NCBI GenBank assembly: GCA_003223645.1 | Contig: QHVT01000006.1 | Span: forward strand, 62,001-126,000 | Direction of reading: 5' to 3' | DNA: 64,000 nucleotides | DNA from: Acidobacteriota bacterium | Lineage (GTDB): Bacteria; Acidobacteriota; Thermoanaerobaculia; Gp7-AA8 | The notes under the pieces: model-generated | Databases searched by the model: none | Told to the model about the DNA's origin: nothing | Seen by the model: only the letters and a program-made list of their open reading frames with translations | Part shown: positions 47,721 to 50,582 of the stretch, piece after piece | Numbering within the stretch: position 1 is the stretch's first letter | How the letters are laid out: each line of letters begins with the position of its first letter | Program-made: the position numbers and the translations under genes

Positions 47721-47800
47721 TGGATAGGACTAGGACGAATAGGACGGATAGGACTGTAGGACAGGTCCTATTCGTCCTATTCGTCCTATCGTTCCTATCC
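47721..47800. repeat. Palindrome family F containing a stop codon
   Basis: GGATAGGACTAGGACGAATA and the complement TATTCGTCCTATCGTTCCTATCC. The TAG of the homoserine dehydrogenase gene (47795-47797) is inside the right arm. Confidence 0.9.
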
Positions 47801-48700
47801 ACACTCGAGAACATCCGCAAGCAGCGCGGCCGCCGTAGGCATCGAGCCGGCTCCCCTGCCGCTGAGGAACACCTCCCCCACCGCCCTCCCGCGAATGACG
47901 ACGGCGTTCTGTTCGTCGATGACGCGCGCGAACGGATGATCGATGCCGACGCGCCGCGGCTCGACCAGCAGCTCCACTCCTCCCGCCACCCGCCGCGCCT
48001 CGGCGATCAATTTCCCTCGCGTCCCCGACGCGATCCCGCGCACGACTTCGCGGTGCACCGGCGCATCGAACGCGACTTCGGCGAGGATGCGCAGCTTCTG
48101 CGCGGCGTCCTGTCCCGAAAGATCGAGCGACGGATCCGCTTCCGCGAATCCGCGCTCCTGCGCGTGCACGACTGCGTCACTGAACGACACGCCTTGTTCG
48201 ACGCGACTCAACACGTAGTTGCACGTGCCGTTCAGGATGCCGGTGATGCTCTCGATGGTGTCGCCGGCGAGACCGCGGCGCAGCGCGCCGATGACCGGCA
48301 CGCCGCCGCAGACGCTGGCTTCGAATCCGATCGTGACGCCGCGCTCGGCCGCCGCGCGAAACAACTCACGCCCGCACGCGGCGAGGAGCGCCTTGTTCGC
48401 GGTGACGACGTCGCGGCCGCGCGCGATCGCGCGGCGCACGAACGTGCCGGCCGTGTGGACGCCGCCGATCGCTTCGACGACGAGATCGCAGTCGCCGTCG
48501 ATGACTTCGAGCGCGTTCGTGGTCAGGAGCGCACGATCGACGCCGGCGTGCGACTTGTCGAGATCACGCACGAGAATGCGCGTGATCTCGAGGTCGACGC
48601 CGTAGCGCGTCCGGATGCGTTCACGTTCAGCGTTGACGAGCCGCACGAAGCCGCCGCCGACCGTGCCGCATCCGAGGAGCCCGATGCGGATTCGCTTCAT
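47795..48700 (-). CDS. hom: Homoserine dehydrogenase
   Basis: 301 residues: the compact form without the C-terminal ACT domain, so feedback by threonine is not expected. Reduces aspartate semialdehyde to homoserine. NAD(P) site IGLLGCGTVGGGFV at residues 6-19, ATANKALLA-type motif VVTANKALLA, and the catalytic GGVPVIGALRRGLAGD...GILNGTCNYVLS region. Stop lies in a family F palindrome. Start overlaps the metB-like stop as ATGA, making a methionine-branch operon. Confidence 0.93.
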   Translation of the reverse strand: MKRIRIGLLGCGTVGGGFVRLVNAERERIRTRYGVDLEITRILVRDLDKSHAGVDRALLTTNALEVIDGDCDLVVEAIGGVHTAGTFVRRAIARGRDVVTANKALLAACGRELFRAAAERGVTIGFEASVCGGVPVIGALRRGLAGDTIESITGILNGTCNYVLSRVEQGVSFSDAVVHAQERGFAEADPSLDLSGQDAAQKLRILAEVAFDAPVHREVVRGIASGTRGKLIAEARRVAGGVELLVEPRRVGIDHPFARVIDEQNAVVIRGRAVGEVFLSGRGAGSMPTAAALLADVLECG

Positions 48701-49878
48701 GCAACTGCCTCCTCGGAATGCGGAACGCCGGCGGTACGCGCCAGGCCCTGTTCGAGATCGTCGATGAGATCGCGGACGTCTTCGAGTCCGACAGAAAGGC
48801 GGATCAGGCTGTCGCTGATGCCGACGCTGCGGCGGACGTCGGGCTCGACCGACGCGTGCGTCATCGTGGCGGGATGACAGAAGAGACTCTTCACGCTGCC
48901 GAGGCTTTCCGCGAGCGTCCAAAGCTGCAGGCGGCGTGTGAACGCGCGCGTCTCGTCGATGCCAGCGTCGAGCTCGAAGGAGACGATCGCGCCGAAACGC
49001 GTCATCTGCCGGCGCGCGACGGCGTGATTCGGCTGATCGACGAGTCCCGGGTAGTAGACGCGGCGCACGCGGTCGTGCGCGAGGAGATACTTCGCGACTA
49101 ATTCGGCGTTGGAACAGTGGCGCTCGATGCGCAGGCCGAGCGTCTTCACGCCGCGCAGGACCAGGTAGCAGTCCTGCGGTCCGGGAACGGCGCCGACTGC
49201 GTTCTGCAGGAACTTCAACTCTTCGTAAAGACCATCGTCGTTGGTGATCACGGCGCCGCCGATGACGTCGCTGTGGCCGTTGATGTACTTCGTGGTCGAA
49301 TGCACGACGATGTCGGCACCGAGGAGCAGCGGCTGCTGCAGGACAGGAGTGGCAAACGTGTTGTCGACGGCCGTGGTAATTCGGCTCCCACGAGCGATGG
49401 CAGAACATCTGGCGATGTCGGTGACATGCAGCAGCGGATTGGACGGCGTCTCGAGCCAGAGCAGTTTCGTGTTGGGACGGATCGCCGCCTCGACGTTTGC
49501 CGGCGACGTCGTGTCGACGAACGTGAACTCGATGCCAAAGCGCGCGAACACTTTCGTGAAGATGCGCCACGCGCCGCCGTAGAGGTCCTGCGTCGAGACG
49601 ACGTGATCGCCCTGCCGCAGCAGCGACAGCACGGCGTGAATCGCGGCCATGCCGCTGGAGAATGCAAGTCCGTGCCGCGCTCCCTCGAGCCCGGCGAGGT
49701 TTTCCTCGAGCGCGCTGCGCGTCGGATGTCCGGTGCGCGCGTAGCAGAAGCCTTTGTTCACTCCCGGTTCCGTCTGGCGGAACGTTGAGGTCTGGTAGAT
49801 CGGTGTGGTCACGGCGCCGGTCACGGCGTCATCGGGCTGCCCGGCGTGAATCGCACGGGTATCGAATCGATAGGACAT
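48697..49878 (-). CDS. Cystathionine gamma-synthase / homocysteine-forming Cys-Met enzyme
   Basis: 393 residues. PLP-dependent gamma-replacement on an activated homoserine. PLP Lys197 lies in HSTTKYINGHSD; YARTGHPTRSALEENLAGLEG, SSGMAAIHAVLSLL and VETPSNPLL-type (WLETPSNPLLHV) motifs are present. Cystathionine synthesis versus direct sulfhydrylation cannot be separated by sequence alone. Ribosome site GGAGGA lies 6 bases before ATG. A Met-rich leader peptide is encoded 80 bases upstream. Confidence 0.9.
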   Translation of the reverse strand: MSYRFDTRAIHAGQPDDAVTGAVTTPIYQTSTFRQTEPGVNKGFCYARTGHPTRSALEENLAGLEGARHGLAFSSGMAAIHAVLSLLRQGDHVVSTQDLYGGAWRIFTKVFARFGIEFTFVDTTSPANVEAAIRPNTKLLWLETPSNPLLHVTDIARCSAIARGSRITTAVDNTFATPVLQQPLLLGADIVVHSTTKYINGHSDVIGGAVITNDDGLYEELKFLQNAVGAVPGPQDCYLVLRGVKTLGLRIERHCSNAELVAKYLLAHDRVRRVYYPGLVDQPNHAVARRQMTRFGAIVSFELDAGIDETRAFTRRLQLWTLAESLGSVKSLFCHPATMTHASVEPDVRRSVGISDSLIRLSVGLEDVRDLIDDLEQGLARTAGVPHSEEAVA

Positions 49879-49933
49879 TGTTTTCCTCCGCAAGGTTCGG
49901 TGCGTTACGTGGATGCGGGAGAGCGCGGAAGAA

Positions 49934-49982
49934 CCCGGGTCAGCAGACAGGCGTAGAGCTACGCCGTCGCGCCCGGGCGACG
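49934..49982 (-). promoter_or_regulatory. Nested hairpin following the Met-codon leader peptide
   Basis: On the RNA strand CCCGGG (49977-49972) pairs with CCCGGG (49939-49934) and encloses the perfect hairpin GGCGTAG-CT-CTACGCC (49965-49950). The leader peptide stop UAG is in the inner hairpin, the arrangement expected of ribosome-controlled attenuation. No long U-run follows, so control of translation is equally possible. Confidence 0.5.
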
Positions 49983-50030
49983 CATCATCATTCGGCCCAC
50001 GAGGAACAGCGTGTGGTGAACGAGCGTCAT
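49959..50030 (-). CDS. Putative methionine leader peptide
   Basis: A 23-residue open frame starting MTLVHHTLFLVGRMMM and ending RRPGATA. Three consecutive Met codons (49991-49983) lie directly before a nested hairpin upstream of a methionine-biosynthesis gene. Ribosome stalling at the Met codons under methionine starvation would free the downstream mRNA. No clear ribosome site; it begins 15 bases after the preceding gene's stop. Confidence 0.55.
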   Translation of the reverse strand: MTLVHHTLFLVGRMMMRRPGATA

Positions 50031-50044
50031 GTTGGCGGCGGAGG

Positions 50045-50437
50045 TTACGCTCCGCCCTGCGTGCTGTCAAGCACGTACTTTTCGATCTGCTGAATGAACG
50101 CGAGGTGATTCGCGGTCTTGCGGATGTATCCGCGCGCGCTCGACTTCGCGACGAGCGCCTGCAGCTCTTCGTCGCTCTTCGCCGAATGCAGGACGATCGG
50201 GATGTTGCGCAGGAAGTCGAACATCTTCGAGAGCTCGAGCACGTGCTCGCCGCGCAGCGCGGGCATTTCGACGTCGAGCAGCACGAGATCGGGCTTCTCG
50301 CGCTGCACGATGACCGGCAGCTTCAGCGCGGACTCCGACGTGATGACGTCGTAGCCCGCCGCCTCGAGCTGCCGCCTGGCGATGCCAAGCGCTTTGTCGT
50401 CATCGTCGATGACGAGGATCTTCGCTTTTCCCGGCAT
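50045..50437 (-). CDS. Single-domain response regulator (CheY-like)
   Basis: 130 residues from MPGKAKILVIDDDDKAL; longer open frame upstream is a family C palindrome. Acidic pocket DDDD at 11-14, phospho-acceptor Asp in VLLDVEMPAL near residue 57, Ser/Thr in VLHSAKS and Lys in GYIRKTANH. No output domain, so it acts through protein contacts. No kinase gene is adjacent. Confidence 0.88.
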   Translation of the reverse strand: MPGKAKILVIDDDDKALGIARRQLEAAGYDVITSESALKLPVIVQREKPDLVLLDVEMPALRGEHVLELSKMFDFLRNIPIVLHSAKSDEELQALVAKSSARGYIRKTANHLAFIQQIEKYVLDSTQGGA

Positions 50438-50486: not shown

Positions 50487-50562
50487 CTGTGGAGCGGCGG
50501 CCGCCCTCGGCCGCCGAATTTTCGCGAGAGGTCGGCGGCCGAGGGCGGCCGCCGCTCCACAG
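50487..50562. repeat. Palindrome family C
   Basis: Perfect outer arms CTGTGGAGCGGCGGCCGCCC and GGGCGGCCGCCGCTCCACAG, core AATTTTCGCGAG. Confidence 0.92.
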
Positions 50563-50582
50563 ATGGGGAGGCTTGGCGGCTC

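Follow-up and report, generated by a model that had tools for sequence, protein, structure and literature searches.

A reading frame of 23 codons with three consecutive Met codons was found in front of a metB-like gene and hom in the window, the whole stretch of 64,000 nucleotides analysed here. From the comparison of related loci we consider it likely that this frame is the leader of an attenuator that acts on the metB-hom operon, is mediated by the ribosome and is specific for methionine.

The leader locus and its promoter

The 23-codon frame described in the initial annotation, with MMM at codons 14-16, was recovered by exact translation of the minus strand (50030..49959). Its UAG (49961..49959) was indeed found within a nested hairpin, at the apex of P1/P2, and the location before a cystathionine gamma-synthase/homoserine dehydrogenase operon (48697-49878 and 47795-48688) was likewise confirmed. 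The features of the locus are as follows.

50065..50070, minus strand: -35 element of the promoter for leader and metB, TTGACA, called from the sequence; nearly all relatives have the same element, at a spacing of 16-19 nt
50042..50047, minus strand: -10 element TAACCT at a distance of 17 nt to the -35 element, overlapping the TAA stop codon of the upstream response-regulator gene
49959..50030, minus strand: leader ORF of 23 codons, MTLVHHTLFLVGRMMMRRPGATA followed by the stop codon; found in 16 of 16 family genomes with this metB ortholog
49983..49991, minus strand: putative sensor codons AUG AUG AUG (codons 14-16), the outer two forming the AUG-N-AUG of 34/34 leaders
49970..49978, minus strand: 5' arm of the P1 hairpin, GCCCGGGCG (codons RRPGA), beginning 4-5 nt past the last core Met codon
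49946..49968, minus strand: P2, apical stem-loop with the leader stop codon; the sequence varies and the pairing is kept, with both-side changes at three pairs
49933..49942, minus strand: 3' arm of the P1 hairpin, UGACCCGGGU, pairing with the 5' arm at 49978-49970
49925..49934, minus strand: anti-Shine-Dalgarno element GUUCUUCCGC directly after P1, for which both inspection and MFE folds give pairing with 49891-49881
49881..49891, minus strand: Shine-Dalgarno region of metB, GCGGAGGAAAA, predicted to be paired in every ribosome state tested
48697..49878, minus strand: metB-like gene of the cystathionine gamma-synthase family, 393 aa; best NCBIfam model PRK07811
47795..48688, minus strand: hom, homoserine dehydrogenase, downstream of the metB-like gene

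The enzyme assignment of the metB-like product is at the family level, since it scored 509 bits with its best NCBIfam model, the PRK07811 cystathionine gamma-synthase, 4 bits below the cut-off of 513. Among the 436 ATG-to-stop frames of 15-45 codons on both strands of the window, an internal MMM was present in the leader ORF alone. Further upstream, between the response-regulator gene and a peptidase-like gene, a nearly perfect inverted repeat, about 27 bp long (GGAGCGGCGGCCGCCCTCGGCCGCCGA...TCGGCGGCCGAGGGCGGCCGCCGCTCC), was observed at 50490-50563, possibly a bidirectional terminator or a REP-like element.

The -10 element lies 11 nt before the leader AUG in the window and 7-11 nt before it in most of the loci where a promoter was called, so that the 5' untranslated region should have at most a few nucleotides and no room for a Shine-Dalgarno sequence. 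None was seen before the leader in these loci, where the promoters are of the type TTGACA/TAnnnT, and the leader would therefore be translated without a ribosome-binding site of its own, that is, it is probably leaderless. In 46 of 47 leaders, counted over the two-phylum set and the Obscuribacterales set described below, the first AUG after the called -10 element shares the reading frame of the Met core, where one third was expected by chance. From this in-frame start and from the frame being kept at 34 loci we infer that the leader is translated. The leader-peptide models of NCBIfam and Pfam gave no match among seven leaders tested.

Conservation of the Met codons and of the hairpin

The 23 residues, used as a short query, matched relatives in many genera of the window's family, directly upstream of the metB ortholog. 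When the region upstream of every metB ortholog was read in 18 genomes of the family, the leader was present in all 16 that carry the ortholog. The other two (G003 and G006) have only paralogues of about 55% identity, and the leader was absent from those upstream regions of paralogues that were read. The first profile search had passed over four genomes of the family, in which the core is a variant one (MPRPG) or the leader is longer; they were recovered by this upstream reading. Outside the family, the leader was found at 4/4 metB orthologs of other Acidobacteriota, at 9/9 orthologs with at least 62% identity in Phycisphaerae and at four further planctomycetotal loci; the Myxococcota ortholog (L237) was without it. 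The total set contained 34 leaders from Acidobacteriota and Planctomycetota, obtained in searches centred on a Phycisphaerales genome and on both phyla, and the sampled genomes were mostly metagenome-assembled. The gene hom adjoins metB in 24 of the 33 leader loci searched. A profile scan of 11 leader-bearing genomes returned the metB leader as the only clear match. Several candidates were rejected: the phylum-wide peptide-profile matches with E values of about 0.006-0.03 looked like chance, which the one inspected (L085) proved to be, three others (L145, L218 and L219) were also taken as chance matches, and three from the first search (L007, L012 and L016) were unlike the leader locus.

All 34 leaders contain the core AUG-N-AUG in the second half of the reading frame. 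Its middle codon was found as GUG, AUG, GCG, AUC, UCC and UUG, among others (L179 and L180 are included in this set), so the MMM triplet itself did not hold up as the conserved unit; what is invariant is M-x-M. The amino-terminal parts have almost nothing in common, as exemplified by the peptides MKNPHVGRSMAMRRPGTGAADLCRAVSR and MVDRLHIATDMMMSMPSPGAGFESCGWLGVAR and by MNFNFIKIHLLIDPAMIMRNPNTAPSN in an AT-rich acidobacterium. Met makes up 11.5% of the internal leader codons, as compared to 3.1% in the short ORFs of the window. The alignment of relatives suggested in the initial annotation thus gave the pattern looked for there, and because the Met codons are kept while the other amino-terminal codons vary, a Met-specific leader peptide is well supported by the sequences. 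The strictly required Met codons are two, which is few for a sensor.

In almost all of the 34 leaders the hairpin P1 starts 4-5 nt past the last core Met codon. Compared with shuffled sequences, the folding z-score was -2.34 for the 176-nt leader of the window and -2.0 for its P1 segment alone; across the 34 leaders P1 had a mean z of -2.1, with 31 of them below -1. In most of the window's family the arms read CCCGGG/CCCGGG, in L118 they are CCCUGG/CCAGGG by a compensatory change, and two leaders have wholly different and still paired arms, CCCGAAUACUG/CAGUAUUCGGG in L179 and GCCGGGCC/GGCCCGG in L180. Since the sequence of P1 is exchanged with the pairing kept, the most plausible reading of the RPG residues is that they result from the hairpin. 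For the Met codons, situated immediately outside P1, a role as codons is the best reading. The other members of the family also have a pyrimidine-rich anti-Shine-Dalgarno run 3' of P1 that pairs with the metB Shine-Dalgarno region.

Several further observations were made on the leader RNA. Most family members have a palindrome of 10 nt, GACCCGGGTC, as the 3' arm of P1, which in the window reads GACCCGGGTT (49932-49941). The 5' portion of the leader and the Met-codon region are complementary to each other in the window's family (49983-50025 in the window) and form a second hairpin in MFE folds, in which the control codons are covered by pairings such as GACGC/GCGUC with AUGAUGAUGCGUC and CGCAUCAC/GUGAUGCG with AUGGUGAUGCG. 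In genus g4 an extra mini-ORF with a CCGG-rich hairpin similar to that of the leader lies between the main leader and metB, about 125 nt upstream of metB in L124 (MCLASMTRPGAGH and stop) and about 120 nt upstream in L122 (MSLVSMPLPDAGH and stop); it is perhaps a degenerate second copy of the leader. The 3' arm of P1 contains a recurrent Cys codon, UGU or UGC (..LCR.. or ..SCG..), in L147-L155, L177, L178, L181, L183 and L184. Cystathionine gamma-synthase takes its sulphur from cysteine, and a second sensing role is conceivable; base pairing may also explain this codon.

Predicted effects of the ribosome on the leader RNA

If the leader acts as an attenuator, the mRNA would begin at or within a few nucleotides of the leader AUG, where a ribosome would start leaderless translation. 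With ample Met-tRNA the ribosome would pass the Met codons to the stop codon and the metB ribosome-binding site would stay masked. With Met-tRNA in short supply it would stall on the Met codons and occupy the base of P1, which would alter the downstream pairing and raise metB-hom expression. If the leader is leaderless, as is probable, a shortage of methionine could act on both initiation, through fMet-tRNA, and the internal Met codons.

The consequences of stalling were modelled with a ribosome that occupies the mRNA as far as 12 nt beyond the first base of its A-site codon, the remainder being refolded. In Phycisphaerae, opening of the metB ribosome-binding site was predicted to be on average 5-6 kcal/mol cheaper for a ribosome at the Met codons than for one at the stop codon. 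For L148-150, L152, L154, L155 and L178, a stall at the first core Met codon lowered this cost by 5-11 kcal/mol compared to the stop codon, and the observed switch was reached by 0-1 of 40 shuffled leaders. In a scan of ribosome positions the effect was gone a few codons beyond the Met codons. In Phycisphaerae, the stretch that follows the Met codons was seen by inspection to resemble the Shine-Dalgarno region and to capture the anti-Shine-Dalgarno element. In most of these relatives the last step would thus, according to the folding, be that the post-Met segment takes up the anti-Shine-Dalgarno element and the Shine-Dalgarno region is freed. Little or no switch was predicted by the same folding for L147, L151, L177 and L181-L184.

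In the window's own family no switch of the metB ribosome-binding site was predicted between the stalled and the terminated ribosome, the mean difference being less than 1 kcal/mol, and the metB Shine-Dalgarno region was predicted to be masked in all ribosome states modelled. Either the folding model misses the switch in this family, or the output is a different one. In the leader region of the window no terminator with a U-run was found between leader and metB on the minus strand. The layout of classical attenuators, put forward in the initial annotation, was thus not supported in the window as regards a terminator, since no U-run terminator was found and no folding switch at the ribosome-binding site was predicted. 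The spacer between leader and metB is rich in C and poor in G (0.44 and 0.20 in the window), which would suit Rho, although this is only a suggestion. Candidates for the last step in the window's family would be a different fold that opens the ribosome-binding site, termination by Rho in the C-rich spacer, or an effect on mRNA stability.

A parallel case was encountered in Candidatus Obscuribacterales (Melainabacteria) and relatives, where metB-like genes have leaders with a zipper of Met codons, e.g. MNNRATMTMNMRSFPAREAEFMH, or beginning with MQNRLNMSMAMSMPSGEGG or MQNRAMTMTMLMLSSGR. In this set (L238-L248, L250, L251, L253, L257, L258, L260, L265 and L266) Met stands at alternate positions (MxMxM) and accounts for 16% of the internal codons. 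The leader is followed by strong hairpins with U-runs, which are intrinsic terminators, and then by the metB Shine-Dalgarno sequence. For 15 of the 19 leaders the predicted probability of the terminator fell from about 0.98 with the ribosome at the stop codon to 0.2 or less when it was stalled at a Met codon, and for each of these 15 the loss was matched by none of 60 shuffles. No terminator switch was predicted for L246, L253 and L266, and in L239 the terminator was misassigned by the script. Mutually exclusive folds set by the position of the ribosome were therefore predicted in most Phycisphaerae, in L178 and in Obscuribacterales, but not in the window's family.

The metB-like genes of Obscuribacterales (L038 and L039) were placed on another branch of the MetB tree, and the modelled folds suggest that their leaders are apparently classical methionine transcription attenuators, independent of those in the window's family. 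In the same FastTree analysis of 130 MetB proteins all leader-bearing genes of the two-phylum set fell into one clade that mixes Acidobacteriota and Planctomycetota. A Myxococcota gene was the only clade member without a leader, and two changes of state are needed. The tree is only indicative because FastTree readily joins long branches; joint inheritance or transfer of the leader together with metB(-hom) is the simplest reading of it. We lean towards the view that methionine attenuators form a class of their own that has arisen at least twice, as a leaderless translational form that moves together with metB(-hom) between Acidobacteriota and Planctomycetota and, in Obscuribacterales, as a transcriptional one with intrinsic terminators.

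Alternative readings and relation to known systems

The residues that follow the Met codons are conserved in the alignment across two phyla, as would be expected if SAM or methionine caused a nascent peptide M-x-M-[RP]-x-P-G-[AT] to arrest the ribosome. The amino-terminal region of the Arabidopsis cystathionine gamma-synthase stalls the ribosome in such a way, and the gene regulated here belongs to the same enzyme family. However, R-P-G is encoded by the 5' arm of P1, the hairpin persists both in L180 (MIMCSRAQG), which has lost these residues, and in L179 (MIMRNPNTA), where they are changed, and the leaders of Obscuribacterales share the Met spacing without RPG. We regard peptide arrest as unlikely. 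Conservation at the RNA level, with P1 and its flanks retained and the CCG and GGC codons nearly invariant, would also fit an aptamer for SAM, SAH or methionine upstream of metB with a coincidental reading frame, and SAM riboswitches commonly control met genes. Yet no Rfam match was obtained at the gathering threshold for the window and 11 related loci, and none at E<=1 for the leader itself; SAM-I was absent from 18/18 family genomes in searches that detected the positive controls. The start codon at the predicted beginning of the transcript, in frame in 46/47, and the free exchange of the P1 sequence in L179 and L180 also speak against a riboswitch. As conservation outside AUG-N-AUG and P1 is slight and P1 is exchangeable, little is left for a binding pocket, and an aptamer appears quite improbable.

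The missing switch in the folds of the window's family would agree with a translated frame that has no regulatory role and merely loads ribosomes or couples translation to metB; leaderless uORFs are common in some bacteria. Such a frame would hardly keep invariant Met codons at a fixed distance from a hairpin, and against it also stand the association with the methionine gene only in the genomes scanned and the switches predicted in relatives, which makes an unregulated frame very improbable. Short ORFs are frequent in high-GC DNA, but a chance run of Met codons in a random frame is refuted by the conservation of the leader at 34 loci in two phyla, and MMM was unique among the 436 short ORFs of the window; we give this origin practically no weight. 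A methionine-specific attenuator is the reading that we prefer.

Textbook leader-peptide attenuators respond to His, Trp, Phe, Thr, Leu and Ilv, and for methionine the usual explanation of control is by riboswitches, T-boxes or repressors. We found no description of a methionine leader-peptide attenuator in the open-access literature, and an earlier description elsewhere is possible. The metB leader resembles the trp, his, leu, thr and ilv attenuators in its end-product codons, in the hairpin at the control codons and in the biosynthetic operon downstream. Their antiterminator and terminator are also present in the Obscuribacterales set, whereas the form in Acidobacteriota and Planctomycetota is without an intrinsic terminator. 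It further differs from them in its methionine specificity, in the probably leaderless leader and in its occurrence in phyla outside those treated in PMC2965389; before the histidine case in Firmicutes described there, leader peptides were known only from Proteobacteria and Actinobacteria.

The cys leaders of mycobacteria (PMC1262725) likewise concern a sulphur amino acid and a leader peptide without an obvious terminator, and polyY motifs in the spacer of the cys operons were proposed to bind Rho. The metB leader differs from these in having Met instead of Cys codons, a conserved hairpin after the control codons, and another gene and other phyla. In the same work the RNA control of methionine genes was assigned to S-box riboswitches, and no conserved RNA structure was noted upstream of methionine operons in Actinobacteria (PMC1262725). 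SAM-I and SAM-II riboswitches and the met 5'UTR of Xanthomonas also control met genes from the 5'UTR, the latter at the level of translation with a masked Shine-Dalgarno sequence (PMC6230763). The Xanthomonas element was set aside as a counterpart because its aptamer is SAM-I-like, whereas the metB leader has no Rfam match and a uORF with Met codons that we infer to be translated. In the mycobacterial B12 system uORF translation likewise interplays with RNA control, and metE is one of the two genes controlled by the riboswitch (PMC11260477). That system senses by a B12 aptamer, whereas no aptamer was recognised in the metB leader, where the putative sensor is formed by the Met codons.

A methionine leader raises the question of how Met codons can serve as a sensor while Met-tRNA is also needed to start the translation of that sensor. 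It would fill the methionine gap among the attenuators and would extend attenuation to phyla in which regulation has hardly been studied.
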